This document shows positions 7,708-39,438 of a stretch of 41,853 nucleotides of DNA, one piece after another. Location: IMG/VR virus record IMGVR_UViG_3300013136_000016, positions 1-41,853 of that record; one strand, written 5' to 3'. Source of the stretch: a virus. The notes under the pieces were generated by a model that was given only the letters and a program-made list of their open reading frames with translations, was not told the origin of the DNA and made no database searches. Both the position numbers and the translations under genes were made by a program. The first letter of the stretch is position 1. Each line of letters opens with the position of its first letter.

Positions 7708-8442
7708 TCATCTCGTGGAATCAAGATCAGGATTAGGTATAGCTTTCCACCGACGTTCTGCATCCCCGCCTGTTCCCCTAGCTAACTGTACTGTGATAGC
7801 TTTCTGTTTTAGGTAGGTCAAAGCTTCATCGTACTCTCCGTCATTCACCAAGTTCTGAATTTCCGTTCCGTCCGATTCAGACAATTTTACTCTGTATACG
7901 ATCGGCCAACGCTGAGGATTAGCTTGAGCTCTCATCTTTAACATTCTGATGATGCTGTTGTACTTCTTTCTTTCCGAAGTATTCCTTCCCTCTTCGGGAA
8001 GAAGTCCAGCTTTGAAGAGAGTGTCAAAATCGACCCAATCGGCCAATGATTCAGGTTCCTCGATGAAAGAATCGATTCCTAGACAATCGGCCAGACCGAA
8101 GTACCATTTTTCCTGTGGAACTGCAATCGATTCGTTGAATGCTGCAAACGATGTTATTGCTTTAGAATTATTCACTTTTTCGTAAACTTCGTCTTTTTCG
8201 TCTCGTTCACGATACGGTTCCAAATTGTCGCCGTACAGACCGGGAATCACGCTAACGTTTTCGTCGTTCAATTCTATTGCATTGGCTAACGTGACTTCGT
8301 ATCGCTTGACGTCTGGTTCGTACCTCGTTGAGTACACCTCGCTAACTTTCGCTTTTGCCCCGGCAATAGCTTGAAACAGTTCGCTCTTTAATTCTTCGCC
8401 GGTCGCTTTTATCTTAACGACATCATCGACATTAAATTCCAT
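7708..8442 (-). CDS. Hypothetical protein with capsid-targeting-like motif
   Basis: 244 residues, no recognised domain. Residues 96-105 read ITSFAAFNES, one copy of the F-x-x-F-(x)-N-E motif seen in many proteins of this window. The N-terminal half may be a small beta domain (MEFNVDDVVKIKATGEE); the C-terminal half is helical and ends in RWKAIPNPDLDSTR. Its start overlaps the end of the upstream 540-residue gene by 11 bases, so the two are co-expressed. A head or core role is inferred only from the motif and the neighbour. The stop is TGA. Confidence 0.6.
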   Translation of the reverse strand: MEFNVDDVVKIKATGEELKSELFQAIAGAKAKVSEVYSTRYEPDVKRYEVTLANAIELNDENVSVIPGLYGDNLEPYRERDEKDEVYEKVNNSKAITSFAAFNESIAVPQEKWYFGLADCLGIDSFIEEPESLADWVDFDTLFKAGLLPEEGRNTSERKKYNSIIRMLKMRAQANPQRWPIVYRVKLSESDGTEIQNLVNDGEYDEALTYLKQKAITVQLARGTGGDAERRWKAIPNPDLDSTR

Positions 8443-10054
8443 TGTTAGGTCTCTTATTTTCGTTTAGGAACTGCGAGAAGTTCATTATCGTCATTGAGTC
8501 CTCGTAAACGCTACGTTTCTTCTTTTTCTTTTTCTTCTGAGTGTTGAAATCTCCAGAACCGAATTGATTTTCGGTGGGAACACGAATCGGTCCAGCACCG
8601 CTTATGGATCCTGGAACTTGAATAGAAACACCCGGAGCAGTTCCGCCTCCTTCACCATCCTCAGTTATCGGAGAAATTACAGGTTGTTTCTTATTGATGA
8701 CGCTCGGCCCAGGAATGAACATCCTTGAGATGGCATCCGCTTTCATTTCGCCTTCTCTTCCGCCGAATAGTCTGCCTATGAATTTCGCGGCAGTGTTCAG
8801 GGTCTTAGCATAGGCTCCATGAGTTTTCTCTCCGAATTCTGACCAAGCTCTCCCAGCCGACGTCATGTTTGGTTGAGCTGCTGGAAAAGCACGAAGTATT
8901 GAAGCTAACCTCTTCCTGAACTTCATTATCAAGCTAGCATCGGCGATCTGCTGACCGGTAACTGGTAGGTCGGTCAGTTCGTGTAATTTTAGCTTGGTGT
9001 TGAACTTGTAATGAATTCCCTTGGCCTTGTCCAAGTTTAGAGACTTATCCTTGGCCCTGTTTATGAGTTCGTTCACTGTTCTAGCAAGTTCGTCGGTCAA
9101 GTACTGAATGACTTCCGGCGAAGAAATGGACTGAAACTTGTAACGAGGTCCTTCCGCTCCACGTAAACCGTTGATTTGCTTTTTGATCTGGTCCGCTTCC
9201 GCATAGATTTCTTCTTCTGTCGTGAATAGCCGGTACCTCATGTCCATGATCCTTCTTAGAATCACGGCTTCCTGCTTGTTCCTGAGAGCTTCTTCCTTTA
9301 CTTGGTTGAATTTTTCTTCTCCAATCTTGTCCTTTATTGTCTGTTCAGCTTTAGCTTTCGCTTGTTTTTCTCCGGCTTGAACCTCTGATGGGTAAATCTC
9401 GATCACCTGATCGGCGATTTCGAACGTATCGATTACCTTTTTTGCACTGTGAATCTTTGCATCTTCCTGAGTATCAGCATCCTCAATGTGAGCGATTTCA
9501 GGTTTAATCTTTTCGCTGAGCACGGTCAAAAAATCCATGTACGTGTTTGCGAATTCGGTTTTCAGGTTAGTTATGTCTTCCATAACCTCGTTAGCGATCT
9601 TGTGAATTTCTTCGTTATCGATGGTTTGGAAAGCCGAATAGATCTTTTCTAGAACTTGAATTCTAGCTGCTATCCTAGCCTTGGCAACGATTAGTTCTTC
9701 AAGGCGATACTCATCGATAGGATCCTTCGACATTATGGTTGAGATCTCGGAATCTATGTCCTCCCGTCTTTTCTTGCAGTACGCTAAGTACCTCTTGATC
9801 TTCGCCTTAGAAAATTCGGTTCCGAGTTCCTTTTCAAGAATCGGTTTCTTAAGGTCCTGAGCAATGTCAACTATGCCGCGTTCCAATAACTGGTCGATTA
9901 GGTAATCCACCTGATTCCAATTGTCGGTGCTTTCACCATTGTCTCCAGTTTTCAAACCGGCCTTGCTTAGAGCGTCCCCAATTTTGATCAGGGTCGTTTC
10001 CAGCAATAAATCTTCAAAGTGTTGAATTCTGTTTATCTTTAGAAACATTCTCAA
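8432..10054 (-). CDS. Coiled-coil, probable prohead core or cargo protein
   Basis: 540 residues, mostly helical and highly charged: KIKRYLAYCKKRREDIDSEI, EEKFNQVKEEALRNKQEAVI and similar heptad-like stretches through residue 350. Then comes a Gly/Pro-rich linker (GEGGGTAPGVSIQVPGSISG), a run of basic residues (TQKKKKKKKRSVYED), and at the very C-terminus MTIMNFSQFLNENKR (from residue 521), a strong match to the capsid-targeting-like motif. The N-terminus (RIQHFEDLLLE) carries a weaker copy. The layout, a long helical body plus short head signals at both ends, suits a scaffold/core or internal head protein. No catalytic motif was seen. Confidence 0.55.
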   Translation of the reverse strand: MRMFLKINRIQHFEDLLLETTLIKIGDALSKAGLKTGDNGESTDNWNQVDYLIDQLLERGIVDIAQDLKKPILEKELGTEFSKAKIKRYLAYCKKRREDIDSEISTIMSKDPIDEYRLEELIVAKARIAARIQVLEKIYSAFQTIDNEEIHKIANEVMEDITNLKTEFANTYMDFLTVLSEKIKPEIAHIEDADTQEDAKIHSAKKVIDTFEIADQVIEIYPSEVQAGEKQAKAKAEQTIKDKIGEEKFNQVKEEALRNKQEAVILRRIMDMRYRLFTTEEEIYAEADQIKKQINGLRGAEGPRYKFQSISSPEVIQYLTDELARTVNELINRAKDKSLNLDKAKGIHYKFNTKLKLHELTDLPVTGQQIADASLIMKFRKRLASILRAFPAAQPNMTSAGRAWSEFGEKTHGAYAKTLNTAAKFIGRLFGGREGEMKADAISRMFIPGPSVINKKQPVISPITEDGEGGGTAPGVSIQVPGSISGAGPIRVPTENQFGSGDFNTQKKKKKKKRSVYEDSMTIMNFSQFLNENKRPNNGI

Positions 10055-10056
10055 AA

Positions 10057-10524
10057 TTATTTCATTTGCAATAGGTACTGAACCTTATTCTTGAGGTCGA
10101 GCATTTCGTCAACGATGTTGAACAGTTCCGAATCCTTATCCCTATCGAAAATTTGGTAGAACATTTCCAGCAGTATGCTATCGACGAGCTGCCAGAAAGC
10201 GGGTAAAGCAACCTCGTAATCGTAGAGCATGATCGATGCCTGTCCGAATTTTAATTTGTCCTTACCGTACTTACCTGCGATTGCTTCGATAAGAGTGTCC
10301 ATCTGACCGATGAACGTATCATAGAATAAGCCGAAATGCCTGTGCTCCGTGTCGAAACCGGTTTGCAGGTGAAGGATTTTTGCCTGATCGGCGATTTGGA
10401 ATAGAGATAGCATAAAAACTGCTACTGTCGATTCCTTTTGATTCTGTGGTTCTGTTACGTCAGGGGCATCCTGTTCCAGCCGAGGATCTTCTTCTCCAAC
10501 TGCTAAAGCTTCGATCTTAAACAT
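10057..10524 (-). CDS. Small helical, ferritin-like phage protein
   Basis: 155 residues, nearly all helix after an acidic N-terminus. KILHLQTGFDTEHRHFGLFY then DTFIGQMDTLIEAIAGKYG resembles the first helix pair of Dps/ferritin-like bundles, where 'H-W/L-x(n)-H...y..' is followed by 'd..a.....G'. Phages of this kind often carry a small ferritin-like family (I recall DUF5856) with this pattern. Metal-binding or a head role is possible but not shown. It sits between the coiled-coil protein and a 63-residue gene, overlapping the latter by 8 bases. Confidence 0.5.
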   Translation of the reverse strand: MFKIEALAVGEEDPRLEQDAPDVTEPQNQKESTVAVFMLSLFQIADQAKILHLQTGFDTEHRHFGLFYDTFIGQMDTLIEAIAGKYGKDKLKFGQASIMLYDYEVALPAFWQLVDSILLEMFYQIFDRDKDSELFNIVDEMLDLKNKVQYLLQMK

Positions 10525-10708: not shown

Positions 10709-10713
10709 GTCTG

Positions 10714-12526: not shown

Positions 12527-14434
12527 TTAAGTTTTTTCCTCGAGTATGAGATCGATCGATTCGTCGACCTCTATTACTGGAACGCCAGGAGATTTGAATT
12601 GTGATAGATCAATCGATTCGTTTAGCTTCTCGTTCAAGTCTCTGTTCATGTTGAAAAATTCTGAGTGAATTGCTGCTGGAGCCGCTGACTTGAATGACTG
12701 GTAATCGTTGTCCTTTACTGAGGTCATTATCGAATCCTTAACTCCCGCATTCGGAAGTTCCATCAATCTCAAATCCTTCTTTAGATTGAGGTTACGAGAT
12801 CTTTTCTTTGCCAGTTCCAACTGAAGAGCAATGTCGCGAATCCTACTTTTGTTTGCAGCAATGATGTTAGGTTCGTAATCTGGGCGAATTTCCTTCAGTA
12901 AGTTTTCGACCTCTCCGTCCGGTACAACTACTGGTCCGATCATGAAGCTTGGGTAGATATTGACCAATTTGTGAAGAGCATTCACGACAGTTTCCTTTTT
13001 GAAAGGTTTGGTCTTATTCGTTGCTCCGCTGTGAACGCAGACCAACAGGCAAGGAAGACCGTTCTCGTTGAACAGGCCCTGTGCCGATTTTATGTGACCT
13101 GGGTGAATTGGTTGAAAGTCAGAGATGATCAAGTTTACCGGTTTAGTCTTCCTATCCTCAATTCCTTTGAAGCTCTCAAAATAACCAGGTTCCTTATCTT
13201 CACCAATGAACTCGCTGAACGTTGGGAAGTAATTTTCGTAAATTGCATCTCCCATGATTACTTTGCTAATTTTGTCTACCTGATCGTTCAGGTTGTCCTT
13301 CATTTCCTTGGTGAAGAACGTCGAACTTACTCGAATTTTTTTCTTCCTAAACATGTTCAGGAAGACACGATAGATTTCCTTGAAGTTCGGATTCGACTCG
13401 ATTATTTGAGTCACTCTAGCGTCATTGACCAATCCGAAGTTAACGTTGAAATCTGCACGCTGTAAGAAGTCCGGAATTTGAATGTCAAGGTCCCTGTACT
13501 TCTCTCCGAATTCCTTTATGAATGCCAAGTAAATGTGATTGACTAGGGAAATGTACTTCTCTTCGTAAGTTTCTCTAGCCAATTGTATGTTGCGTAGTTC
13601 GCTCAATGAGTACTGTTCTATGAAGTTCATCAGGTCGATGACGATGATCCAAATGTAGTCATCGCTCTTCTTTTGATTCTTGTCCGCCGCTCTGGCCTTT
13701 GCATTCGCTTGAAATGCTGGGTCGACCAATTTTGCTAGGAACACAGGTTCCTCAGTTTTCTTTCCGTCCTCGTAAAACCTGAATACAACTCCCTCTATGT
13801 CTTTATCGAGTGAATCACGTAGGAACGTTGCTTTCATTTTTGGATTGAGAACCGACATGATGTACTTGGTGAAAGAAATGGTCTTGAACTTTTCTACGAG
13901 CTCGTCGAACGGAGTGTAAACGAACTCCTGAATCTTGTTCTTCTGTTCGTCAGTCAGCTTTCCCTGGAAAATGATAGGTGGTCTTTCTATTCCTAGAAGG
14001 TCGGCCCATTTGTTGAGTTCTTCCTTGCTCTGAATGGTTTCAGAAATGCTACCGTTCTGATCGAGAATGTGAATGTAACTGAGAATCAATTTGTTTTTTG
14101 GAAGACGGTCGTATGCGATGACCTGCGCTTTCTTATTCGCGAAGTACTCCATTCCGAACATGTACGGAACTGGGATCTTTTCTATCGTTTCAGGAGATAG
14201 GCTTTCGAAGTACTGTACGGCAGGTTCGAAGTACCTGCTCAGAACTCTGTCGATGTACGAGAGCTCGCCGTTCCTTTTGAAGTACTGGAATTTGGACGAA
14301 TTTGGATCGCGCTTCACGCCAAAGAAGGCTCCGTCCATCTTCTCGTTGATGATGATGGATTTATTAAGGAGATTCTCTATGAATGCCTTACCTTGTTTGT
14401 CTAAAACGTCCTTTAAGTGTGATAGCCCTGGCAT
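12527..14434 (-). CDS. Nucleic-acid ligase fused to HxGH nucleotidyltransferase
   Basis: 635 residues. Residues 1-250 have covalent nucleotidyltransferase (RNA/DNA ligase) motifs: EKMDGAFFG (motif I, Lys32 as AMP acceptor), FGMEYF (III, 93-98), IEGVVFRF (IV, 213-220) and FLAKLV (V, Lys235). Residues 250-400 are helical. Residues 433-600 are a cytidylyltransferase-like fold: NLIISDFQPIHPGHIKSAQG contains HPGH (444-447). The usual ISGT-R motif near the end is replaced by KDSIMT, so catalysis by this half is uncertain. Between the two parts, FPTFSEFIGED (403-413) matches the capsid-targeting and protease-site motif. The operon also has a kinase and a HAD phosphatase, pointing to nucleic-acid repair. 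RNA is the likelier substrate because DNA ligases usually carry an OB domain, not seen here. Confidence 0.7.
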   Translation of the reverse strand: MPGLSHLKDVLDKQGKAFIENLLNKSIIINEKMDGAFFGVKRDPNSSKFQYFKRNGELSYIDRVLSRYFEPAVQYFESLSPETIEKIPVPYMFGMEYFANKKAQVIAYDRLPKNKLILSYIHILDQNGSISETIQSKEELNKWADLLGIERPPIIFQGKLTDEQKNKIQEFVYTPFDELVEKFKTISFTKYIMSVLNPKMKATFLRDSLDKDIEGVVFRFYEDGKKTEEPVFLAKLVDPAFQANAKARAADKNQKKSDDYIWIIVIDLMNFIEQYSLSELRNIQLARETYEEKYISLVNHIYLAFIKEFGEKYRDLDIQIPDFLQRADFNVNFGLVNDARVTQIIESNPNFKEIYRVFLNMFRKKKIRVSSTFFTKEMKDNLNDQVDKISKVIMGDAIYENYFPTFSEFIGEDKEPGYFESFKGIEDRKTKPVNLIISDFQPIHPGHIKSAQGLFNENGLPCLLVCVHSGATNKTKPFKKETVVNALHKLVNIYPSFMIGPVVVPDGEVENLLKEIRPDYEPNIIAANKSRIRDIALQLELAKKRSRNLNLKKDLRLMELPNAGVKDSIMTSVKDNDYQSFKSAAPAAIHSEFFNMNRDLNEKLNESIDLSQFKSPGVPVIEVDESIDLILEEKT

Positions 14435-14446: not shown

Positions 14447-15001
14447 TTAGTCTAACGGCCCGAAGTCTCCACGACTCATTGCTTGACCGAATTCCCTTTT
14501 TCCATGCGAGTCCAGATCAATGCTAATGTGAGTGATCAAGTCAGCAACTTCCGAATTTCCTTCTAGGTACGAAATCAATTCGTTAGGAATGATGTTCTGA
14601 GACGTGGTTTTTCCACCTTTTGCTGTCAATCTCTTTTCGATTTCGTTGTACCTCAAACCTCTTCCGCTAGCCTGCCAAATATAGAACGAGACTTCTTTCT
14701 GATTCTCGTCCTTGTAATAGTTCTTGTAGAATTCTTCAATCTTCAGGAGTTCGTCCGAGATAAGTTCGAAAGCTGCGTCAGGCCCGATTTCTTTTATGAT
14801 TCCGGGTCTGTTAGAAATGATGGTTGCTACGTGAGAAGCATGCCCGTGAATGTCGGCTGGGTAGTGAATCGTTTCCAATTTCGGACACAATCCGATTATA
14901 GTTTGCAGTTCGGATAAAAATTCCGCTGCAGGTATTCCTTTGAATGGGGTCTCTAACGATTCATTTACCTCGAAAAAATTCTTTACGAATTTCTTAAGCA
15001 T
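14447..15001 (-). CDS. Hypothetical protein in the ligase operon
   Basis: 184 residues. The N-terminus MLKKFVKNFFEVNESLE resembles the capsid-targeting-like motif (aromatic pair followed by N-E-S). The body contains HYPADIHGHASHVATIIS and IWQASGRGLRYNEIEKRL, with several His residues that might bind metal, but I know no family with this pattern. It has its own late-promoter-like element and lies 12 bases upstream of the ligase fusion. Confidence 0.55.
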   Translation of the reverse strand: MLKKFVKNFFEVNESLETPFKGIPAAEFLSELQTIIGLCPKLETIHYPADIHGHASHVATIISNRPGIIKEIGPDAAFELISDELLKIEEFYKNYYKDENQKEVSFYIWQASGRGLRYNEIEKRLTAKGGKTTSQNIIPNELISYLEGNSEVADLITHISIDLDSHGKREFGQAMSRGDFGPLD

Positions 15002-17577: not shown

Positions 17578-19041
17578 TTGCTAGTATTTGACGTAACTGC
17601 AGATAAGCAGTACCTTCAGTTAGTACACCATGACACCAAGGGTGAATTAAAGGATCTGCAGCTCTACTTCAAGAAGAGGCAACAGGGATACTTTCACAAC
17701 ATTCTTTACAAGAGAAAACTTTGGGACGGGTACGATAAATTCATCGATGACCACCATCGAATCGGTATCGGTCTGTGGCGAGAGGTGTACTACTTCGGCG
17801 AAAAGTACGATTACGAGATAGAAATCCGTGGATTGGACAGTCTTTTGAACCTGGAGTTCACAAAGGACAAGTCAGACAAGTTCGCGTCAGTAATGTTGGA
17901 CGGAACTAACCCCCAAATCGAAGCCTACGATTATCAATTGGAAGCTCTTCACCGTGGATTGAAGTACAAGTTCTGTGCACAGGAATTAGCGACCTCAGCA
18001 GGTAAGACCCTGATCTTCTTTTTATACTTATCGTTCCTGAAAAGAAAGGGAATCATTTCAAAGGACAAGAAAGCAATTCTCATAGTTCCGAAAGTATCCC
18101 TGGTCAATCAGACAGCTGATGCATTCGAAACGGAATATCAGACGGGGTTGGTCACCTGGAACATTCACCGTATAGGAGGGAAGAACGAATTCTCCGAGAA
18201 GAAATTTGCTAATTGCGATCTGGTCATCACCACCTATCAGAGCGTCATTCTCGACGACGGTACTCCAGCCAAGCGTGGAAAAAAGAAAATAGAACGTAAG
18301 ACCAAGCCGGAGTTCTTCAAGAACTTCAGCGTCGTTTGTGTAGACGAATGTCACACGAGTCGAGGAGATTCGATTCGCAACATCCTGTTGGCCAGCATCA
18401 ATGCTGAGTACAAGTTGGGACTCTCCGGAACCATACAAATAGAGGAACAGTTCTCGGACTTCTTCAAGATTCAGGAGTTCTTGGGTCCGCTTAGCATGAA
18501 GGTCAGAGCGAAGTTCTTGATGGACAACGATTACTCTGCTGACGTTCATGTCAAAATGCTAAAGCTCAAGTACCCAAAGGACGAAACGTTCGTTCAGAAG
18601 TATGCCGAGCTGAAACAGATGGAAGTTCATCCTCCTGGGAAAGTGATGTACGATATGGAAAAGGAATTCATTATCTCGTACGAACCTCGAATCAATTTCA
18701 TTGCGAAGCTCTGTGAGAATTTGCAGGGGAATAAGTTAGTCCTATTCATAAACGTTAAGGACAAGTACGGGCAGCGAATTCAGGATAAGATTCACGAAAC
18801 TAACGAGAACGTTTACTACATAGATGGAGGCGTGAACGATGACGATAGGAGCGACTATCGAGAAATTTTGGAAAATTCAAATAAATTTTTAGTAATTGAA
18901 TTAGCTGATAGATTCATTAAAATTAACCAATATCAATTTGTACAGCTAAATGATGGTTCTAGAAAATACGCAAAGGATTTAACAGAAATTGATGAAATCT
19001 CAGATGCATGGGTAACTTTACAAAAGTGTCAATATAAATAA
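17578..19041 (+). CDS. uvsW: UvsW-like SF2 helicase, N-terminal part, interrupted
   Basis: 487 residues from a TTG start; no ATG is available in frame. The N-terminal domain (YKRKLWDGYDKF) matches the UvsW 'YGNWDG' pattern. Helicase motifs follow: ELATSAGKTLIFFLY (Walker A, Lys143), VCVDECHTS (DECH, residues 256-259) and LGLSGTI (motif III). Motif IV-like KLVLFINVKDK and YYIDGGVNDDDRSDYREILE are normal. After Glu432 (18873) the DNA turns AT-rich and the remaining 55 residues are foreign. UvsW unwinds branched DNA and R-loops in recombination-dependent replication. Motifs V and VI lie 1.2 kb downstream, beyond an HNH endonuclease gene. Confidence 0.85.
   Translation: MLVFDVTADKQYLQLVHHDTKGELKDLQLYFKKRQQGYFHNILYKRKLWDGYDKFIDDHHRIGIGLWREVYYFGEKYDYEIEIRGLDSLLNLEFTKDKSDKFASVMLDGTNPQIEAYDYQLEALHRGLKYKFCAQELATSAGKTLIFFLYLSFLKRKGIISKDKKAILIVPKVSLVNQTADAFETEYQTGLVTWNIHRIGGKNEFSEKKFANCDLVITTYQSVILDDGTPAKRGKKKIERKTKPEFFKNFSVVCVDECHTSRGDSIRNILLASINAEYKLGLSGTIQIEEQFSDFFKIQEFLGPLSMKVRAKFLMDNDYSADVHVKMLKLKYPKDETFVQKYAELKQMEVHPPGKVMYDMEKEFIISYEPRINFIAKLCENLQGNKLVLFINVKDKYGQRIQDKIHETNENVYYIDGGVNDDDRSDYREILENSNKFLVIELADRFIKINQYQFVQLNDGSRKYAKDLTEIDEISDAWVTLQKCQYK
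18874..19041 (+). other. Foreign AT-rich tail, intein block-B-like remnant
   Basis: The 55 residues after the helicase body (IELADRFIKINQ, FVQLNDGSRKYAKDLTEIDE) look like intein block B, which typically reads as a beta strand, T-x-x-H region, then 'l-x-dG-s-x-x-a-x-dL-x-x-x-D-x-i'. The usual N-terminal Cys/Ser and block A are absent, and the TxxH His is missing. It may be a worn-down split intein or a chance match. Codon use is like the endonuclease insert, not the helicase. Confidence 0.4.
19033..19040 (+). promoter_or_regulatory. Exact T4 late promoter octamer TATAAATA
   Basis: TATAAATA overlaps the end of the interrupted helicase frame, 26 bases before the endonuclease ATG. Late promoters in front of homing endonuclease genes are also known in T4. 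Confidence 0.6.
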
Positions 19042-19066
19042 GTAAAAGTTCACATTTTGTACAGGT

Positions 19067-20044
19067 ATGAAATTCAAAAATATAAATTACTTCTATTCAC
19101 AGTTCATTAATGAATTGGGAATGCCTGACGATGACCTCAAATTATTTGAATATTTGACTTTTTTATTACGGTATTCCGAAGTGCACGATAGTACGCAAAC
19201 AGTTGAATATACTGAAAATCATCATATTCTTCCTAGATCGCCATTTAATCAGCACATCAATGCAAATTGGAACATCGTCAATCTTGTTTATTTAGATCAT
19301 ATTTTTGTTCATGAATTGTTAGCACAAGCGTATAATACCAGACAATTTTTGCGAACATTAAATTTTATGAAGAGTGATATTTCTAAGAATCATAAAATTT
19401 TATCGATTGCAGCAAAGAAAGGATGGATGAAGTTAAAGAGCAATATTGAAATTTATGAAAAATGGAAGTTAGCTAGACACGAATTTTTAAAAAATATTTC
19501 ACTGACAGAAAGAAGTCGTAGATCAAATAAAGCATGGGCTAAAATAAAAGCAGACCCTTTAAAGTATGCGGCACGATGCAAACAAAATAGTGAGAACTGG
19601 AGCAATGATTTACGTATATTAAAAAGTAAACAAATGAAAGAATATTTTACAAATAATCCAAAGGAAAGTTCAAATAGAGGTTTGAAACGATGGGCATCGG
19701 CTGATACAGAATATCGTAAAGCATTCGGCGAGAAAATAAAGAAATCGTTATCAACTATAATAGTAAAAGATAAAATAAGTACAAAATTAAAAGCTAAGTG
19801 GAATGAACCTTTATTTAGAGATAAAATGAAAAACCGTAAAATTCGGCAATTCAAGTATCTTCTTATTTCGCCACTTGGCGAAGTTTTTAGACGAGTTGGC
19901 GTCCAATCTATACTTGATGAATTTAATTTTTCAGCAAGTTTATTTAGAAAATTTACGAATTCTAATAAGCGAGTTAAATCAAAGTATCTTAAATGTGAGA
20001 AAGTTCGAAATACAATAGGTTGGACAATTAATAAAATAAGCTGA
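19067..20044 (+). CDS. HNH homing endonuclease inserted in uvsW
   Basis: 325 residues, Lys/Asn-rich and AT-rich. TENHHILPRSPFNQHINANW then NIVNLVYLDHIFVHELLAQA matches the HNH variant of phage homing endonucleases: 'E-x-H-H-I-x-P-(R/K)-S ... N-x-v-x-L-x-x-x-e-H-x-x-x-H-x-L'. The basic C-terminal part (RSNKAWAKIKADP, KSLSTIIVKDKIS, GEVFRRVGVQSILDEF) likely holds NUMOD-type DNA-binding repeats. It would cut a uvsW allele lacking the insert and spread by repair. The ORF is free-standing (own ATG, own promoter) and ends with TGA. Base composition differs sharply from flanking helicase DNA. Confidence 0.8.
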   Translation: MKFKNINYFYSQFINELGMPDDDLKLFEYLTFLLRYSEVHDSTQTVEYTENHHILPRSPFNQHINANWNIVNLVYLDHIFVHELLAQAYNTRQFLRTLNFMKSDISKNHKILSIAAKKGWMKLKSNIEIYEKWKLARHEFLKNISLTERSRRSNKAWAKIKADPLKYAARCKQNSENWSNDLRILKSKQMKEYFTNNPKESSNRGLKRWASADTEYRKAFGEKIKKSLSTIIVKDKISTKLKAKWNEPLFRDKMKNRKIRQFKYLLISPLGEVFRRVGVQSILDEFNFSASLFRKFTNSNKRVKSKYLKCEKVRNTIGWTINKIS

Positions 20045-20054
20045 TTAATTTAAT

Positions 20055-20135
20055 ATGGCAAAAATAGTATCATTAAAAAATATAGAGGAGAATACGAAGG
20101 AGGCAACTGGCGTTGTGCTAGTTGCCTCCTATTGA
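20055..20135 (+). pseudogene. UvsW motif V region, out of frame with its continuation
   Basis: From 20085 the reading frame gives EENTKEATGVVLVASY and then TGA. This continues the interrupted helicase well (YREILE, then this) and leads into the canonical motif V 'VASY..GTFSTG', but GTFSTG is in another frame. Dropping one T in TATTGAG would give VASYEVGTFSTGIN without a stop. Codon use from 20085 is helicase-like, while the ATG at 20055 and its ten AT-rich codons belong to the insert. Confidence 0.5.
20098..20130 (+). other. Perfect 11-bp inverted repeat at the helicase re-entry point
   Basis: AGGAGGCAACT and AGTTGCCTCCT flank an 11-base loop. The left arm contains a GGAGG Shine-Dalgarno-like core that would be hidden in the hairpin. 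The TTG start of the C-terminal helicase ORF (20122) lies in the right arm. No T-run follows, so a terminator is unlikely. Confidence 0.7.
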
Positions 20136-26915: not shown

Positions 26916-28610
26916 ATGGCAGGATTTTTAGAAGGTAATCCAATGAAATCGCTCAAGTCCAGGTTAACGGAATTGAGCAGGTTCGGCCTTAAATACGATG
27001 ACCTCCTCATTAAGAACTCTCAGGCGATCGGTTTTATCGAAAGCCAATTGGGAGGATCAGGTGGAGGCTTCGCAACCGACGATTTAATGAGGGCCACCGT
27101 AGCCCTAGCAGATACCACTTCGGCACTGAAGACGAAGGCTATCGCCTTCTTTCAGATGGATTACGTTACGAAACGTGAACGTTTGAGGGACATAGCTTCC
27201 AGTGGAGAAATCGAGTTCGTTCTCGAAACAATAACAGACGATGCAATCGTTTACGATCCGGACAATCGCTTCTGTTATGCGAACGACCTTATCGGAGAAA
27301 TGCAGTACCTCGGAGACAACAAAAAGAACCGTCTCGAGTACCAAGAACGTATCGTCAATGCTTACAATACAGCATTCTCGAAAATTTACAGTCGCTGGGG
27401 ATTCGATCAAGGAATTTCTGCATGGCAGTACTTCTACCAGTGGTTGATCGAGGGACACCTAACGTTCGAAATCATTTACGATAACATTCTGAAGCCAACC
27501 GAGATCATCGGTTTCAAGGAACTTGACCCGGCAAGCCTCTATCCGGAACTGAAAAAGGATAATGAGGGCAAGATGGTCCTCATGTGGTCCCAGCGTGATC
27601 CTCTTACTAAGCAAATAAGAACATTAGCCGACTCACAGATCATTTACATATCGTACTCGAATCACATGAGGACGAAACGTGTAAGCTTCGTTGAACGTTT
27701 GGTGAGATCTTTCAACATGTTGAGGATCATTGAGCACTCGAAGGTCATTTGGCACACGATGCATGCTCCAATTCGATTGGTTACTACCGTTCCTATCGGA
27801 ACCAAGTCAATGCAGAAAGCCAAGGAGGACGTTCGTGAGTTCACGAACACCCTGAAGGAAGATATTTACTTCGACGGCGAATCTGGCGAACTGAAAGTCG
27901 ACGGAAAGCCGAGCATTCTGTTCTACAAGAACTACGTCGTTCCAGTAAATGACCAGCAACAGCAAGTAAAGATAGAACCTTTGGAATATGTCGGTCCAAA
28001 CCTGTCCGGTTCAGAACTCTTGAAGTACTTTCATGAAAAACTGAAGATGGACTCGAAAATTCCTAACTCCAGGTACACTGAGGGGGGCGGAACGTTCACC
28101 TTGTCAACGGAAGGTATTTCCAGGGAAGAAATTCGCTACAACAAATTCATTTTGCGTCTGCGTTCAGCTTACAAGGAGCTCATCACGAAACCTTTGTACT
28201 TGCAAATGTGCATGGACGTGAAGGAATTGAGAAATGATCCAAAATTCAAGAACTCTATTGGCGTAACTTGGTACGATGATAACGTATTCGAGGAAATCAA
28301 GAATCAGGATCTCCTGAACAAGAGGATCGCAGCAATCAACGCTCTCAAAGCAATCACTAATGACGAGAACAAGTCGTACTTCTCTTCCGACTTCTTGGTA
28401 AGGGAATACTTGAAGCTTAGCGATCAGGTAATTCAAAAGAATGCCGATTACTTGGCTAAATCAAAGGGTAAAACGTCTGAGGGACAACCAGCAGAGGTCG
28501 AAGTTCCAGCTGGAGGTCCTCTTCCAACCCCGGCTCCTCCACCGGAAAATCCTGAAGAAGCTGGTGGCGAAACCAAGAGCGAAATGGGAACTCCAGAAGG
28601 AGGTCTCTAA
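26916..28610 (+). CDS. Portal vertex protein, T4 gp20-like
   Basis: 564 residues (T4 gp20 is 524). FQMDYVTKRERLRDIASSGE and LETITDDAIVYDPDN near the start, FEIIYDNILKPTEIIGFKEL then DPASLYPELKKDN, and QIIYISYSN in the middle follow the T4 portal pattern (residues 'R..l...A..peI...vd.ivdeaiv', 'G...Y..id..nP..Gi.eL..idP'). The C-terminus is a Pro/Glu-rich tail (VPAGGPLPTPAPPPENPEEA). It forms the dodecameric ring through which DNA is packed. It is the last plus-strand gene before the convergent tail operon. Confidence 0.8.
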   Translation: MAGFLEGNPMKSLKSRLTELSRFGLKYDDLLIKNSQAIGFIESQLGGSGGGFATDDLMRATVALADTTSALKTKAIAFFQMDYVTKRERLRDIASSGEIEFVLETITDDAIVYDPDNRFCYANDLIGEMQYLGDNKKNRLEYQERIVNAYNTAFSKIYSRWGFDQGISAWQYFYQWLIEGHLTFEIIYDNILKPTEIIGFKELDPASLYPELKKDNEGKMVLMWSQRDPLTKQIRTLADSQIIYISYSNHMRTKRVSFVERLVRSFNMLRIIEHSKVIWHTMHAPIRLVTTVPIGTKSMQKAKEDVREFTNTLKEDIYFDGESGELKVDGKPSILFYKNYVVPVNDQQQQVKIEPLEYVGPNLSGSELLKYFHEKLKMDSKIPNSRYTEGGGTFTLSTEGISREEIRYNKFILRLRSAYKELITKPLYLQMCMDVKELRNDPKFKNSIGVTWYDDNVFEEIKNQDLLNKRIAAINALKAITNDENKSYFSSDFLVREYLKLSDQVIQKNADYLAKSKGKTSEGQPAEVEVPAGGPLPTPAPPPENPEEAGGETKSEMGTPEGGL

Positions 28611-29859: not shown

Positions 29860-30324
29860 TTATTCTTCTGATCCTGGAGCTGCCATTGGCTGCCCTGCTG
29901 GGTTTCCGCCTATTCCTGGAGTGTTCTGAGCAGCCTGTGTTGCGGTCGGAGCGGCGGTTGTCGTTTGTGTAGTAGACTTCGCCTGCTCTGCTGCTAATTG
30001 CTGTTCGAACTGATTCTCTTGTAACCGCAGATCGTTGTAATCCTTCTGTGCCTTAGTTAAAGTTTCCAAAGCTTGCTGGATCTTCGGCTTCAGAGCGTTC
30101 AACTGAGTTACGATAGCATTCACATCCTCATTTATAGGATTTTCGACAGTTGCCGAATAGTCGGGCTTGTTTGTGGTTAGAGTAGTTAAATCCGCTCTTT
30201 TGACCTGGTCCACGAACTTTTCCTTCTTCTGTGGGTCGACGTTATCGCCTTTCAGAGCAGTTTTTGGATCCTGCAAGGTGTCTGTTTTTGCGAACTGGTC
30301 GAAATTCATTACTTTATCTGACAT
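29860..30324 (-). CDS. Small helical protein with N-terminal head motif
   Basis: 154 residues. N-terminus MSDKVMNFDQFAKTDTLQD has Phe8 and Phe11 at exactly the positions seen in two other proteins of this window, though without a clear x-x-E cut site. The middle is a coiled coil (LNALKPKIQQALETLTKAQK DYNDL) and the end is Thr/Ala/Gly-rich. Core or cargo protein by motif; no enzymatic feature. Confidence 0.55.
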   Translation of the reverse strand: MSDKVMNFDQFAKTDTLQDPKTALKGDNVDPQKKEKFVDQVKRADLTTLTTNKPDYSATVENPINEDVNAIVTQLNALKPKIQQALETLTKAQKDYNDLRLQENQFEQQLAAEQAKSTTQTTTAAPTATQAAQNTPGIGGNPAGQPMAAPGSEE

Positions 30325-30341: not shown

Positions 30342-30351
30342 GTTATTTATT
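30342..30351 (-). promoter_or_regulatory. T4-like late promoter element (AATAAATAAC)
   Basis: Minus-strand ATCAAATAAATAACAAAAAG, 17 bases before the ATG of the 154-residue gene; it overlaps the stop codon of the upstream nucleotidyltransferase gene. Confidence 0.65.
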
Positions 30352-31092
30352 TGATCCTCCTTCTAGGTACTCAGCGAAAGATTTAACGTGCTTCTTTTTG
30401 GTCAATTCTCCAGGGTTCCGTCTGAACTGGGTCACGTTATTTGCAGGATTCAAATCCCATCTGGAATAAGGAGCAGAATTCGTCCATTGAGTAGGAATCG
30501 CTCCGAGATTGGTGCTTATTGGAGTTGGAGAAACGTTAGGGTCGGTTTCCTGATTGAACGAATCGGCTGGGATAGAATAGGTTCCGCTCGCTTCTTCGTT
30601 CACTATTTTCCATAGTTTTTCCTTGTCCACTTGTCTTGGCAATGCCGCAAAGAATTTTTCCTTGTCCATGTTCTTAATAAATTTTCGCATGTCGGTACCA
30701 GATACACCCTCAGGTCTCTTAGTAGTAATGCGGTTGATTTTCCCTATTCCCCCAGAAAAACGTTCGACAGTATCGAACCTGTTCATATCAGAGTCAAGAG
30801 AATATATGTTGAGCGTGACGTTCCGGGCGTCCTTGCTTTTTCCCAACAGGTCGATGAATTCGTAGGCTGTTTTTACTGGAGAACCTTCGGCCAGGTTGAT
30901 CTTCACAGATTTATCGTCCTTGAAGTACTCCTTTAGGATCTGCACGGCCATCGCTCCAGTCACGCCGTCCATTTCGATAGGAGAAACGAAGACCTGAGTC
31001 TCGTCGTTCTGCTTAGCTATCTTTTTGATGGCTTCGTAATGACCGACATGAGGTGGCTTGAACTTGCCAGTGATGATCCCGACCTTCTTCAT
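30343..31092 (-). CDS. Cytidylyltransferase-like nucleotidyltransferase with C-terminal head motif
   Basis: 249 residues. GIITGKFKPPHVGHYEAIKK carries HVGH (15-18) and a basic lysine; EGVSGTDMRKF (129-138) is the ISGTxxR motif that binds nucleotide phosphates. So the catalytic fold looks intact, as in NMN adenylyltransferase or related enzymes that join a nucleoside monophosphate to a phosphorylated substrate. A low-complexity Asn/Pro/Thr stretch and then VKSFAEYLEGGSNK at the extreme C-terminus follow, another copy of the head motif (Y-L-E-G). It is a paralogue of the C-terminal half of the ligase fusion (compare GVSGTDMRKFIKNMDKEKFF with GVKDSIMTSVKDNDYQSFKS). Confidence 0.7.
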   Translation of the reverse strand: MKKVGIITGKFKPPHVGHYEAIKKIAKQNDETQVFVSPIEMDGVTGAMAVQILKEYFKDDKSVKINLAEGSPVKTAYEFIDLLGKSKDARNVTLNIYSLDSDMNRFDTVERFSGGIGKINRITTKRPEGVSGTDMRKFIKNMDKEKFFAALPRQVDKEKLWKIVNEEASGTYSIPADSFNQETDPNVSPTPISTNLGAIPTQWTNSAPYSRWDLNPANNVTQFRRNPGELTKKKHVKSFAEYLEGGSNK

Positions 31093-31098: not shown

Positions 31099-31635
31099 TT
31101 AGACTTTTAGGTTCTGTGAAGCTCTTATCAAGCATTCTGCCATGTAATGAGTGCATTCCTTTAGGAACGTCTCGTACGTTTGATTAGGATCTTCTGAGGT
31201 CTCGTAAATGTGAGCTTCTTTGATCAAAACCTCATTACAGATCTGCTTGATTGCGGTCTTTGCATTTTCCGATAACGTGTCCGGATGGTCTGAACAACCC
31301 TCGCAAGGCTGAGCCATTTCTTCAGGTTCCTTTAGCATGTCCTCTTCGTTCATTTCTTCTGTATCATCGTCCTGATCTTCTCCGATTGGAGTTTCAGAAA
31401 CGTTAGCCTGAAAATCCTGAAAGCTTTCGAAAACTTTGTGACTTTCATGATGATTCGAGGAGCCTTCTTTGTGGCTCGTTCTTTGTGTTGTCATTGATTC
31501 GCTCTTTTTTTGATTTTCGGCTGAGTCCTCACACGGAAGCTGTTCCTCAGTTAGAGTAGCGGTTTCGTCGGCAATGCCTTGACCGAACTTCTTTAATACG
31601 AATTCAGGGAGGTTGAATTTTCCGAATTTCCCCAT
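31099..31635 (-). CDS. Acidic hypothetical protein with head-like motif
   Basis: 178 residues. A low-complexity, His/Ser-rich middle (SHKEGSSNHHESHKVFESF QDFQ) contains F-x-x-F (72-75), then an acidic run (GEDQDDDTEEMNEEDMLKEP) and a helical C-terminus (ETFLKECTHYMAECLIRASQ). The acidic run is reminiscent of small acidic prohead core proteins. No enzymatic motif. Late-promoter-like element directly upstream. Confidence 0.5.
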   Translation of the reverse strand: MGKFGKFNLPEFVLKKFGQGIADETATLTEEQLPCEDSAENQKKSESMTTQRTSHKEGSSNHHESHKVFESFQDFQANVSETPIGEDQDDDTEEMNEEDMLKEPEEMAQPCEGCSDHPDTLSENAKTAIKQICNEVLIKEAHIYETSEDPNQTYETFLKECTHYMAECLIRASQNLKV

Positions 31636-32616: not shown

Positions 32617-32618
32617 AT

Positions 32619-34595
32619 CTACTTTATTGATAGGCAGTCCTCTTTCGCCTTCCTCGTGATCACCAGGTGATCTCCTTTTTTGACCTTATTGTCTACATAG
32701 GCTTCGGCTATGAGGTCCTCCAGGTGTGACTGAATGACTCGGTGTAACGGACGAGCTCCGAACTTTTCGTCGTAGCCTTTTTCGATAAGGAATTCCTTCG
32801 CCTTGTCCGTGATTTCGACGAAGTACCCATTTTCTTCTACTCGTTCCTTGAGATTGGCAAGTTCGATGTCAATGATCTTTCCGATGTCAGCCTTGGTCAA
32901 GGAATTGAAGGTGATGATGTCATCGATACGATTGATGAACTCCGGCGCGAACTGTTTGCTTACAGCTTTACGAAGAACCTCGTTCGCCAGTTCCTTTTGC
33001 CTTTCGATTTGACCGGCTGTTGCAAATCCTATGCCGGTTCCGAACTCCTGCAAAGTTTTTATCCCAACGTTCGACGTCATGATGATGACCGTGTTCTTGA
33101 AGTCAACGGTCTTTCCCAAACCGTCAGTCAAACGACCGTCATCGAGAACTTGGAGTAGCAGGTTAAAGATTGAAGGGTCTGCTTTCTCGATTTCGTCGAG
33201 AAGCACGACCGAATACGGCTTACGCCGAACTTTTTCGGTCAACTGACCGCCGTTCTCGTAACCAACGTATCCCGGAGGAGCTCCAATTATGCGGCTTCCT
33301 GAGAATTTTTCGCTGTATTCGGACATGTCAATACGAAGCAGAGCATCTTCCGAATTGAAAAGGAACTTTGCAAGCTGTTTTGCTAGTTCGCTCTTACCTA
33401 CCCCGCTAGGGCCGATGAAAAGAAACGTTCCAATCGGCTTTTTCTTTGACTTCAGACCGGCTCGTGAGCGTTTTATTGCCCTTGCGAGCTTATGGATGGC
33501 CGAATCCTGTCCGACTATGAATTTCTGTAGAGATTCTTCCATTCCGGACAGCTTCTGGATGTCAGTTCCCGTCATTTTATTGACCGGAATGCCAGTAATG
33601 TTGGAAACAAGCTTGGCTATGTCATCTTCGGTGACTGAAAAGCGATTTGCTTTCAGAGATTGCTCCCATTCTCTCTTTGCTTCTGTAATTTCATCGGCCG
33701 CCGCAAGAGCTTCATCCCTGAGTTTTGCTGCGGCTTCGTAATCTTGAGAATTTACAGCATCGTTCTTCTTTTTGATGACCCCGACCAATTTTTCTTCGAG
33801 AGTTTTGATGTTAGAAGGAACTACCACACCGTTTATATGAACTGTAGCTCCAGCTTCGTCCATAAGGTCGATCGCTTTGTCCGGAAGCCATCTGTCCTGA
33901 ATGTACAGATCGCTGTACTTGACGCAAGCGTCCAAAGCGTCCTCAGTGTACCTTACAGAGTGATGATCTTCGTACTTTTCCTTGATGTTCTCGAGGATTT
34001 CACAAGTTTCGTCAGCGGTTGGCGGATTTATGATGATTTGTTGGAACCTGCGGTTGAGAGCTCCGTCCTTTTCGATTGAATTACGGAATTCGTCGATAGT
34101 TGTAGCTCCAATGCACTGAATTTCTCCCCTTGCGAGAGCTGGCTTAAGAATGTTAGCAGCATCGAGCGATCCGCTTGCGGATCCGGCTCCTACTAAAGCA
34201 TGAACCTCATCGATGAACAGAATCATGTTTCCGTTGTGCTGGACTTCCTGAATTATCTGTTCCATTCGCTGTTCGAACTCTCCACGATACTTGGTTCCGG
34301 CAACGAGGTTAGCGAGTTCAAGGGCAATGATTCTTTTTCCGAGAAGTACTCTCGGACAAGTCCGGTTCACTATCATGGTCGCTAAACCTTCGACAATCGC
34401 CGTTTTTCCAACGCCAGGTTCTCCAATCAGCAACGGATTGTTCTTTTTCCTTCTCGAAAGTATCTGGCTGCATCTCTTGATTTCTGAGATACGGCCTACC
34501 ACTGGATCGAGCTTTCCGTCCATTGCTAATTGAGTCAGATCCTTACCGAAGACATCTACTAGAGGAGTTTTAGTGCTTTGAGCTGTCTTTACCAT
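32619..34595 (-). CDS. ClpC-like AAA+ unfoldase lacking the N-terminal domain
   Basis: 658 residues with two AAA+ modules: first Walker A GEPGVGKT (58-65) and Walker B LFIDE (126-130); a short UVR-like middle segment (DYEAAAKLRDEA, about 285-296); second Walker A GPSGVGKS (395-402), LLDEIE Walker B and sensor NRIDD. The gene starts just before the first AAA domain (LDPVVGRISEIKR), so the about 150-residue adaptor-binding N-domain of host ClpC/ClpA is missing. GIGFA (521-525) in D2 matches the (I/L)GF loop that docks on ClpP, so it could work with host ClpP. Its start lies inside the GIY-YIG gene's 3' end. Confidence 0.85.
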   Translation of the reverse strand: MVKTAQSTKTPLVDVFGKDLTQLAMDGKLDPVVGRISEIKRCSQILSRRKKNNPLLIGEPGVGKTAIVEGLATMIVNRTCPRVLLGKRIIALELANLVAGTKYRGEFEQRMEQIIQEVQHNGNMILFIDEVHALVGAGSASGSLDAANILKPALARGEIQCIGATTIDEFRNSIEKDGALNRRFQQIIINPPTADETCEILENIKEKYEDHHSVRYTEDALDACVKYSDLYIQDRWLPDKAIDLMDEAGATVHINGVVVPSNIKTLEEKLVGVIKKKNDAVNSQDYEAAAKLRDEALAAADEITEAKREWEQSLKANRFSVTEDDIAKLVSNITGIPVNKMTGTDIQKLSGMEESLQKFIVGQDSAIHKLARAIKRSRAGLKSKKKPIGTFLFIGPSGVGKSELAKQLAKFLFNSEDALLRIDMSEYSEKFSGSRIIGAPPGYVGYENGGQLTEKVRRKPYSVVLLDEIEKADPSIFNLLLQVLDDGRLTDGLGKTVDFKNTVIIMTSNVGIKTLQEFGTGIGFATAGQIERQKELANEVLRKAVSKQFAPEFINRIDDIITFNSLTKADIGKIIDIELANLKERVEENGYFVEITDKAKEFLIEKGYDEKFGARPLHRVIQSHLEDLIAEAYVDNKVKKGDHLVITRKAKEDCLSIK

Positions 34596-35184
34596 TTACT
34601 TTCTTTTTGCAATTTTCGAAATGCCATCTGTACATTCCGTTAGTTTTTCCGGAAGTGCCACAGTGTGGGCACGTTAATTCGCGAAATGCTGTTTTGTGTG
34701 TTTCAAAATATGCAGTTAATGTACTGCTAATTTTTTGTAATCGTTCACTTTTTTTAATCGGATCAATATTTTGCCAATCTCTTTTTACCGATTCTCTACG
34801 TTTATTTCTTTCCTCTTCTGCATTTTCAATTCCGTGAATTTGTTCATACGTTTTACCGGATAAAGCTGCTGATATGCGGTTCTTTGTTTCTATTGAGTGA
34901 TGCATTTTGAATCCTTCTCCACCGTCAGTAAAATTAGAAAGAATTCCGTCATTTGTAAGTTTGCCATATCTTAGAATGTATTCTTTTTCTAATCGACAGG
35001 CTTCCTCCCAAGAAATATTGTCATGTAATATTTCGACTTTATATTCTGTCTTCTTAACGATGTTATTCCATAGCGGATTGCGATTGTGTTTCTTATATGC
35101 ACGTCGGTAATCTGGCCCCAATCCTATTCCGATATAAAAAATAGAATTCGTATCTAATCGTATGTGCTGGTAGACATAAGCCAT
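34570..35184 (-). CDS. GIY-YIG homing endonuclease with C-terminal zinc finger
   Basis: 204 residues, AT-rich. The N-terminus has VYQHIRLDTNSIFYIGIGLG (the 'GIY' strand as VYQ, then YIG), followed by AYKKHNRNPLWNNIV (R..H) and EEACRLEKEYILRYG (the helix with the catalytic Glu). HSIETKNRISAALSGKT is a NUMOD3 repeat. The C-terminus has CPHCGTSGKTNGMYRWHFEN followed by C, a C2HC-type finger. The last 26 bases overlap the start of the ClpC-like gene in another frame. It sits on a late-type promoter and is free-standing. Confidence 0.85.
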   Translation of the reverse strand: MAYVYQHIRLDTNSIFYIGIGLGPDYRRAYKKHNRNPLWNNIVKKTEYKVEILHDNISWEEACRLEKEYILRYGKLTNDGILSNFTDGGEGFKMHHSIETKNRISAALSGKTYEQIHGIENAEEERNKRRESVKRDWQNIDPIKKSERLQKISSTLTAYFETHKTAFRELTCPHCGTSGKTNGMYRWHFENCKKKVNGKDSSKH

Positions 35185-36348: not shown

Positions 36349-36356
36349 CCAAATAA

Positions 36357-37650: not shown

Positions 37651-37651
37651 A

Positions 37652-38459: not shown

Positions 38460-38465
38460 ATCGAT

Positions 38466-38648
38466 TTAAGAATTTTTCCTTAACGATATTATACTACTGG
38501 CTGGCTGTTTGGGTTTAGCTTTGACCTGCGATTTTTTAGGTCTTGAGGGCTTCTTTTTCGGATTCTTTCCGAATATGTAAGGATCGCCGGCTTGAGTTAT
38601 TGCGGCTTGCTGAAGGAATTGAGTGAAGTTCTCGACGATCCTGCCCAT
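38466..38648 (-). CDS. Small basic protein with N-terminal head motif
   Basis: 60 residues. N-terminus MGRIVENFTQFLQQAAITQA has Phe8 and Phe11 as in two other proteins. The rest is Lys/Pro-rich (NPKKKPSRPKKSQVKAKPK), like a DNA-binding internal head protein. It is three bases from the next gene, an acidic coiled-coil membrane protein. Head-cargo role by motif and charge. Confidence 0.55.
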   Translation of the reverse strand: MGRIVENFTQFLQQAAITQAGDPYIFGKNPKKKPSRPKKSQVKAKPKQPASSIISLRKNS

Positions 38649-38650
38649 TT

Positions 38651-39118
38651 TTATTTCAATTGTTGACCGAAAATCATCGCTAGAATGATTCCGGCTAATG
38701 CTGTGAAAATGATCCAGAGGACTCTGGTAACCGTTGTCTTAAAGGAAAGTATCTCTTTATGCTCATCGAGCATCTTTTGGTATTCCTTTTCTTCAGCTTC
38801 CTTTTTTGTTTTGAAAGCCTGAAGGTCATGGTGTTCGGTTATGAGTTTCTGAAAGTCCTTTTCCTCAGCTACCGATTTCTTTCTGAACTCGGTATTCTTG
38901 TTGACCCTCACGACGATCCCGTCCTCTGGGTCCAATAACTGTCGCTTTATTGCACGCAGGTCCTCTTTTATGTCCTCCTGCGTGGAGTCGATATTGGTGA
39001 TCTTTTCTTGGATCGCCTTTAATTCCCCATTAGGAAATTGTTTTTTGATTATCTCTAAAGCTTCAAGGATCTCATTCATCATGAGATTAACATCGCCGTC
39101 TGTGCGAGGATCTGCCAT
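38651..39118 (-). CDS. Coiled-coil protein with C-terminal membrane anchor
   Basis: 155 residues. Residues 10-125 are charged heptads (KKQFPNGELKAIQEKITNID; EHHDLQAFKTKKEAEEKEYQ). The end, TRVLWIIFTALAGIILAMIF then GQQLK, is a single membrane helix. This tail-anchored layout resembles XhlA-type phage lysis proteins, but the family call is weak. It may be holin-associated or a membrane-bound structural protein. Confidence 0.55.
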   Translation of the reverse strand: MADPRTDGDVNLMMNEILEALEIIKKQFPNGELKAIQEKITNIDSTQEDIKEDLRAIKRQLLDPEDGIVVRVNKNTEFRKKSVAEEKDFQKLITEHHDLQAFKTKKEAEEKEYQKMLDEHKEILSFKTTVTRVLWIIFTALAGIILAMIFGQQLK

Positions 39119-39153
39119 TTTTAACCGAATTTTTTTAGTAAAGTTGAGTGTGA

Positions 39154-39438
39154 TTAGTCTACTGCTGGAGTTTCCTCAGGTTTCTCTCCGCCTTCTGGTT
39201 CTGCTGGTTTTTCAGCGCTTGCATCAGTGTCATCGAGAACAGTAACATCGTCTCCGCTTTCTGGTTCGATGGTAGCTACTGGAATTTCTGGCTCAGGAGT
39301 AGGTTCGCTATCGACCATTGCTGGCGTTACCATTCCACCCGATTGAGCTGCACAGAATTCTTCGAAGTTTAAGATTTTGGTTGAACCCTCAAGATTAGCA
39401 CCGTCCATGTTAGGCATGTTCATGTTATTGCCGTCCAT
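39154..39438 (-). CDS. Small acidic protein with head motif
   Basis: 94 residues, very acidic (TIEPESGDDVTVLDDTDASA then EKPAEPEGGEKPEETPAVD). Residues 20-29 read TKILNFEEFC, with the F-x-x-F motif at 25-28. It resembles the small acidic T4 prohead core proteins in composition, so a core-protein role is plausible. Late-promoter-like element 20 bases upstream of its start. Confidence 0.5.
   Translation of the reverse strand: MDGNNMNMPNMDGANLEGSTKILNFEEFCAAQSGGMVTPAMVDSEPTPEPEIPVATIEPESGDDVTVLDDTDASAEKPAEPEGGEKPEETPAVD

Follow-up and report, generated by a model that had tools for sequence, protein, structure and literature searches.

Do the short aromatic peptides carried by many proteins of one phage route those proteins into its head? 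We addressed this question in a viral DNA stretch (IMG/VR record IMGVR_UViG_3300013136_000016, positions 1 to 41,853). The whole stretch analysed, here called the window, comprises 41,853 bases and is contained, at 99.96% identity, in a 68,667-base IMG/VR record (G001). An initial annotation had read a motif, F-x-x-F-[IL]-N-E, in about eleven of its proteins and likened it to the capsid-targeting sequence (CTS) of T4 internal head proteins, which the prohead protease gp21 cuts. We found that the tag is a short peptide with two aromatics three residues apart, and that its N-terminal form mostly continues into hydrophobic-x-Glu. On sequence grounds, these peptides are probably T4-type capsid-targeting tags in a large T4-like phage. 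That judgement covers targeting; the docking site is a separate matter, and for it we consider a gp21-type protease of the related phages that is fused to a tag-like repeat array.

The case that can be made from the window by itself is modest, and the case from seven contigs is strong. These seven are G001 and six relatives of 114-270 kb each (G002, G003, G006, G008, G010 and G011, with G008 covered to 180,000 of its 180,030 bases), together encoding 1,259 proteins. Computation showed that the motif exists, is enriched at N-termini and is conserved, that protease and array are fused, that tag and repeat are alike, and that array and tags occur together. A strict tag pattern, [FY]xx[FYW][ILVM]xE starting at residues 4-10, occurs in 70 of the 1,259 proteins; the Glu of these cases is built into the search pattern, and the cases are not independent because some of the contigs are mutually close. 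Pattern density was 42.8 per 10,000 N-terminal sites against 2.7 mid-protein, a 16-fold enrichment. With the aromatic spacing one residue longer or shorter, the ratio was 1.3 and 1.0, respectively, and with Lys in place of Glu it was 0.7. In 92 pairs of orthologs at least one protein is tagged; the other has a strict tag in 60 of them and an aromatic pair close to the N-terminus in 76, against a background of 191 in 1,195. Many tags open with MK-h-K-x-F.

The tagged proteins are diverse. The function scan covered the 61 N-terminally tagged proteins of G002, G003, G006, G008 and G011, leaving out the nine of G001 and G010. No Pfam family was found in more than one member, and few members matched a PHROGs family with an assigned function. 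The PHROGs matches (25 of 26 families) include deoxyribonucleotidase (four members), NUDIX, lysozyme, CHAP and AAA ATPase, with single matches to clamp-loader, portal and baseplate-lysozyme families. The same scan applied to T4 returned four proteins, namely ipII, ipIII, 61.1 and 61.4.

The relatives encode a gp21-type protease and a gp23-type capsid protein. PF03420 (gp21-like protease) scored over its cut-off in 10 of 11 related records, and the protease matches T4 gp21 (PDB 5jbl) both by sequence (E-value 4e-6) and by fold (E-value 5.8e-11; template modeling score 0.78 by target length). The SSRAAG and DHP columns are invariant in nine sequences. The relatives' protease thus belongs to the Peptidase S77 (gp21) family and fold. 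On six contigs it is part of a fusion of 660-677 residues that lies directly before the gp23-type capsid gene, with no separate gene in between. The middle of each of the six fusions is an array of 10-11 matched tandem 14-residue repeats with the consensus K-G-I-x-Y-[ST]-[EN]-Y-[LV]-A-E-[NK]-[VL]-[NE], and the C-terminal part contains, by eye, INES and LNE stretches without aromatics. The fusion, its place before gp23 and its repeats suggest a scaffold role for the array.

This architecture also occurs outside the compared contigs. An alignment search with the fusions found at least 578 relatives. Among the best 80 loci, some of which lie on the compared contigs and all of which were found with a query that included the array, the fusion's open reading frame (ORF) was found in 79 and at least six in-phase units in 77; one of the other two ends with its contig. 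Shuffles of 39 of these proteins gave at most two in-phase units. The glutamate six residues after the first aromatic (+6) is present in 250 of 281 distinct array units, counted in a run in which the ORF was found in 39 of the 80 loci. Arrays are clear in the huge-phage records LR756501, LR756504 and LR745206 and degenerate in LR756500, and one array-bearing record is 735 kb long. By eye, the protease ORFs of T4, phiM12, PA5oct, XacN1, Phosso, immuto and Lak-A1 contain no array.

When 1,265 proteins were ranked by their number of internal hits to a profile built from the 70 tags, with no fusion included, the six fusions took the first six places. The hits in the array fall in one of its 14 phases, and only 1 of 2,000 column-permuted profiles reached the observed score. 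Since the repeats are mutually alike, this is in effect one match rather than eleven. The likeness is restricted to the core heptapeptide, which in the array is Y-[ST]-x-Y-[LV]-A-E. Array and tags also tend to occur together, the tagged fraction being 2.3-6.9% in ten array-bearing genomes against 0-1.5% in seven without. Tagged proteins out of the total were 5/126 in G002, 15/261 in G003, 19/297 in G006, 13/214 in G008, 7/127 in G010 and 9/158 in G011, and 36/520 in LR756501, 16/271 in LR756500, 9/346 in LR756504 and 7/303 in LR745206. The genomes without an array gave 2/303 (PTm1, scanned with the F/Y/W pattern only), 2/219 (immuto), 4/259 (T4), 2/407 (Lak-A1), 2/233 (phiM12), 0/154 (PA5oct) and 0/142 (Phosso). 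The four LR records, Lak-A1, phiM12, PA5oct and Phosso were scanned in part. G001, whose contig does not include the protease, gave 2/82.

In T4, according to passages of one review (PMC9026906), no more than the first ten residues of IPIII are required for head entry. The same passages report that mutagenesis of the CTS assigns targeting to residues 4 and 7 and cutting to residues 8 and 10, and that Asp10 stops cutting and not targeting. They describe the internal proteins as having affinity for the core and co-purifying with gp22, and report no defined contact. The roles of residues 4/7 and 8/10 correspond to the aromatic pair and the hydrophobic-x-Glu of the tags described here. For docking, cutting, packaging and ejection we infer the following course. 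The aromatic pair would dock the tagged protein to the prohead core. The docking site is most likely, though at about even odds and so less surely, the array of the gp21-type protease, in which case a cargo tag would enter the core like one stray scaffold repeat. The activated protease would then cut after hydrophobic-x-Glu, freeing the N-terminally tagged cargo and shredding the array, and the cargo would remain in the head and probably exit with the DNA. Tags that lack the Glu and tags at the C-terminus would dock without being freed by that cut; their proteins may be held in place or act as structural anchors. Where the tag is C-terminal or internal, cargo cut after the Glu would still carry the docking peptide and so would not be freed.

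Cargo tag and scaffold repeat may even be one interchangeable part, with a core made from tandem docking peptides and tens of proteins loaded via single copies; we put this forward tentatively. If true, this would account for the large and shifting sets of proteins in the heads of huge phages, and it would name the binding partner of this capsid-targeting sequence. Should the tag be one scaffold repeat unit, the rule for docking could be stated explicitly and checked with peptides, and the tagged proteins of huge phages that are known solely through metagenomes could be catalogued from their sequences. The tagged set provides candidates for proteins that enter the host as infection begins.

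Several observations weigh against the explanation as a whole. Genes on the contigs were called by script, so the gene starts are estimates, and moving the Glu by one residue still left a ratio of 4.5. A cytoplasmic role is conceivable for some of the tagged proteins, since one of the 61 matches a clamp-loader family and four match the deoxyribonucleotidase family. In T4, the 61.4 motif precedes the annotated start, 61.1 is a hypothetical protein, and the strict pattern misses IPI and Alt. The window's own 68.7-kb contig, a fragment, is the one of the 11 records that contains no protease gene, and the array is known from the relatives alone; there it is predicted to be helical at low AlphaFold confidence (predicted local distance difference test about 35). 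When the aromatic pair and Glu are removed from the tag profile, permutations reach the score in 51 of 2,000 cases, and the likeness in these remaining positions is weak. A profile trained on the array repeats alone found no cargo above chance; at 8 bits it picked up 36 proteins, compared with 28 in shuffled and 31 (up to 48) in column-permuted controls. The array has Y..Y where the cargo mostly has F..F, and its upstream hydrophobic is at -2 rather than at -3 as in the tags. The N-terminal to mid-protein ratios also overlap between genomes with an array (LR756504 3.7, LR745206 4.1) and those without (T4 4.3, immuto 3.2, phiM12 12.2 from two proteins), and up to seven N-terminal hits with the wrong spacing occur in LR756501. 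The array-bearing phages may be one clade, in which case the co-occurrence does not amount to many independent events.

Part of this evidence would suit a T4-type CTS whose docking partner is some other core protein, with the array likeness due to chance or to unrelated helix constraints. We regard this as unlikely; it opposes docking at the array alone and is compatible with the rest of the explanation above. T4 itself, which has CTS proteins and no array, speaks for it and so counts against array docking, as do the differing flanks of tag and repeat and the failure of the repeat-trained profile to find cargo. Conversely, the mid-protein rate of 2.7 per 10,000 puts the probability that one of the 14 phases matches by chance at about 0.4% (an estimate), and the array-lacking PTm1, Lak-A1 and immuto have only two tagged proteins each. 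The likeness could also come from shared cutting, if the gp21-type protease reads [FY]xx[FY][ILV]xE as its substrate and the aromatic pair is no docking signal. The near-constant Glu of the array units agrees with this, and hydrophobic-x-Glu is present in both the strict N-terminal tags and the array. We nevertheless find it improbable, in view of two families of window proteins (named here by their first window position) that keep the aromatic pair without the Glu, with Glu at +6 in 0/6 sequences for 29860 and 1/7 for 30343. In T4, residues 4 and 7 mainly target (PMC9026906), and the INES and LNE stretches of the fusion are putative cut sites that do without aromatics.

Two further explanations receive much less weight. 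The tags could be a shared N-terminal peptide with a different role, for instance in contacts with membranes or chaperones or as a common context for translation initiation. The common MK-h-K-x-F beginning, possibly reflecting shared gene starts, would fit such a role, which is nonetheless very improbable given that the aromatic pair is also found C-terminally and between domains in conserved families and that its spacing is constrained. We give almost no credence to by-eye chance matches as an account of the whole. The window has no excess of F..[FY], two listed proteins (7708 and 14447) fail the profile described below, and unlisted proteins score equally well; the enrichment and conservation across the relatives nevertheless refute chance for the set as a whole. 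Chance may apply to single sites such as 38466, 39154 and 19067.

Returning to the window itself, all 11 strings quoted in the initial annotation are in the genes named, and its residue numbers, where given, are correct. The motif itself stands, though the sites vary more than the annotation had it: F-x-x-[FY] is present in 10 of the 11, and the literal F-x-x-F-[IL]-N-E in two (8432 and 20403). Likewise, the proposed hydrophobic-x-Glu cut site, with Glu at +6, is found in three (8432, 12527 and 20403) and is missing from eight. The observation that the Phe residues of three N-terminal cases are at exactly 8 and 11 was borne out for 20403, 29860 and 38466. In these three the aromatic pair is part of a short N-terminal peptide; in 8432, 30343, 12527 and 21176 it is positioned elsewhere. 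Tested against shuffles of the 53 called window proteins, F..F[ILV][NGAS]E was observed 3 times versus 0.10 in shuffles (maximum 1) and [NS]F..[FY] 17 times versus 7.8 (maximum 13), and the plain F..[FY] count of 63 versus 59 was no excess. The pattern [FYW]xx[FYW][ILVM]xE has nine matches in seven proteins, among them unlisted matches in the middle of the portal protein and of 35879.

The annotation had also proposed scanning with a profile made from its sites. We used a docking profile that was trained without the window's contig, with p calculated against each protein's own shuffles, and it upheld most of the listed sites. Values of p≤0.01 were obtained for 8432, 20403, 30343, 38466, 39154 and 29860, and also for 31099 at a site other than the one listed. 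Gene 21176 was weaker (p=0.04), as was 12527 (p=0.135, or 0.005 with the Glu scored), and 7708 (p=0.29) and 14447 (p=0.595) failed. The unlisted 5516 and 16619 score equally at internal sites, as does a doubtful small ORF at 41014; the 5516 site is present in some orthologs and missing from others. With unlisted proteins reaching such scores, no weak site in the window is reliable when taken singly. Conservation among orthologs nevertheless supports the tags of 7708, 8432, 20403, 21176, 29860 and 30343. By its own terms, the annotation would be refuted if the motif were equally frequent in clearly cytoplasmic enzymes such as the primase. The window does not refute it: the docking profile gives no tag in the primase (p=0.39), the DNA polymerase (0.82), the UvsW helicase (0.885) or the Clp ATPase (0.335), nor in the portal protein (0.50), where residue 173, mid-protein, is a bare strict-pattern match. 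In the relatives, though, the tagged proteins include nucleotide enzymes and the one clamp-loader match.

The 11 listed genes are all on the minus strand, and the family counts below comprise the window protein plus its orthologs. The clearest N-terminal tag, NFSNFINES (residues 7-15, window 21132-21158), belongs to the 257-residue protein encoded at 20403-21176. The aromatic pair and the Glu at +6 are present in 7/7 members of its family; the strict pattern fails in one of them, where position +4 is Ser. The 154-residue protein at 29860-30324 has an N-terminal docking motif, NFDQF, without Glu (residues 7-11, window 30292-30306), and F8/F11 are retained in 6/6 sequences of its family. In the 60-residue ORF at 38466-38648, an N-terminal NFTQFL without Glu occupies residues 7-12 (window 38613-38630), and an ortholog search found none. 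A degenerate N-terminal tag, NFFEVNES (residues 8-15, window 14957-14980), is found in the 184-residue protein at 14447-15001, in which the second Phe is out of register (F9/F10); the canonical form is present in 3/3 orthologs.

Two proteins have their tags at the C-terminus. The 540-residue protein at 8432-10054 ends in NFSQFLNE (residues 525-532, window 8459-8482) after a Lys-rich stretch. F526 and F529 are the sole invariant residues in the last 15 positions of seven sequences, and Glu is at +6 in 4/7. A PDB search with this family returned Gfh1 only, at E-values of 0.02-0.06, a match that we do not believe. The cytidylyltransferase-like protein at 30343-31092 (PF01467 at 21.2 bits, cut-off 21) carries a C-terminal linker followed by SFAEYLEG (residues 238-245, window 30358-30381). 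An aromatic pair near the C-terminus is found in 7/7 members. Four members have the enzyme domain, two of them with an extra HAD-like domain by eye, and three keep the linker and tag alone. Judging from these alignments, a better description of this nucleotidyltransferase is that of a conserved C-terminal linker and tag, to which an enzyme is joined in only some of the relatives.

The remaining listed motifs are internal. In the 244-residue protein at 7708-8442, SFAAFNES (residues 98-105, window 8128-8151) has its Glu one residue early; F99 and F102 are invariant in five aligned sequences, the tag starts the protein in 3/5 of them (shorter orthologs), and the aromatic pair is present in 6/7 family sequences. 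An RNA ligase and cytidylyltransferase-like fusion at 12527-14434 (PF09414 above its cut-off, PF01467 slightly under) has the inter-domain motif FSEFIGED at residues 406-413 (window 13196-13219). Its family, with ortholog lengths from 622 to 984 residues, shows FPxFxxF in 7/7, and at +6 Glu in three, Asp in three and Thr in one. The 124-residue protein at 21176-21550 (phrog_3684) carries SFDNFVLNE (residues 74-82, window 21305-21331) before a conserved domain, with the aromatic pair in 6/7 sequences. SFQDF (residues 71-75, window 31411-31425) in the 178-residue protein at 31099-31635 is accompanied by an unlisted YETFLKE (residues 154-160, window 31156-31176), and orthologs have other internal copies, for example TFDQFVNEC, in 3/5. 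Finally, the 94-residue protein at 39154-39438 has NFEEF without Glu (residues 24-28, window 39355-39369), and the single ortholog found has SFEEF.

CTS and gp21 are known, and the comparison with T4 made in the initial annotation proved apt in position, spacing and the order of aromatic pair and hydrophobic-x-Glu. With T4, where IPII, IPIII and others carry the CTS, the present system shares the N-terminal position, an S77 protease with the gp21 fold, a gp20-type portal, a gp23-type capsid protein and diverse cargo. The gp20-type portal protein of the window (26916-28610, plus strand; PF07230, E-value 5e-61) is a marker of T4-like head assembly and has no terminal tag. Its best matches among annotated phages are uncultured huge phages, Prevotella Lak phages and Tenacibaculum phage PTm1. 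Unlike T4, with its four tagged proteins, these phages have more by the same scan (15 in G003, 19 in G006 and 13 in G008), include C-terminal, inter-domain and Glu-less tags, and fuse the protease to a tag-like array. T4 Alt is also cut near its C-terminus, and the passage of PMC5694885 on this cut mentions no C-terminal tag. The phiKZ-related phage SPN3US likewise has many head-internal ejection proteins and prohead protease maturation. Its propeptides are mostly longer than 100 residues, with two of 20-24 (PMC5694885 and PMC10052503), whereas the tags here are short, the strict ones starting at residues 4-10, and no long propeptide characterizes them. In Tenacibaculum phage PTm1 and Prevotella phage Lak-A1 the protease ORF (589 and 584 residues, respectively) likewise has a long extension at its C-terminus. 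By eye, the repeats are different in PTm1, and in Lak-A1 a long acidic stretch replaces the array. The PTm1 protease-scaffold fusion (L162, 5932-7701) contains EKWI-type repeat units instead. A protease-fused array made of the CTS motif was not found in searches of the open-access literature, subscription papers being outside the search.

An unlisted N-terminal YSQFINE at residue 10 (motif plus flank, window 19088-19114) was found in an HNH endonuclease-like ORF (19067-20044, plus strand); its homologs are two loci, both 100% identical, and so are uninformative on this tag. The ORF has the look of an HNH homing endonuclease that interrupts a UvsW-like helicase gene (17578-20400), lying between the main ORF and a C-terminal ORF at 20122-20400 that by eye is helicase-like. 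Further homing endonuclease-like ORFs of HNH and GIY-YIG types were noted by eye at 25023-25724 and 34570-35184. The start of the DNA polymerase B ORF at 22225-23853 already falls within the polymerase domain (position 146 of 453 in Pfam), so the N-terminal part of the polymerase is elsewhere or split. Rfam at gathering thresholds gave no match in the window, and Tandem Repeats Finder reported no repeats there. A 608-residue baseplate-cluster protein (1407-3233) ends in many [IM]GD[VIA]YP-type repeats with Pro-rich spacers, which went undetected as DNA tandem repeats. A link through ribosomal protein S21 to published lake phages of Bacteroidetes was considered and set aside: the S21 gene is present in two of eight relatives (G003, 46716-46874; G004, 224366-224527), more than 100 kb from the protease gene.

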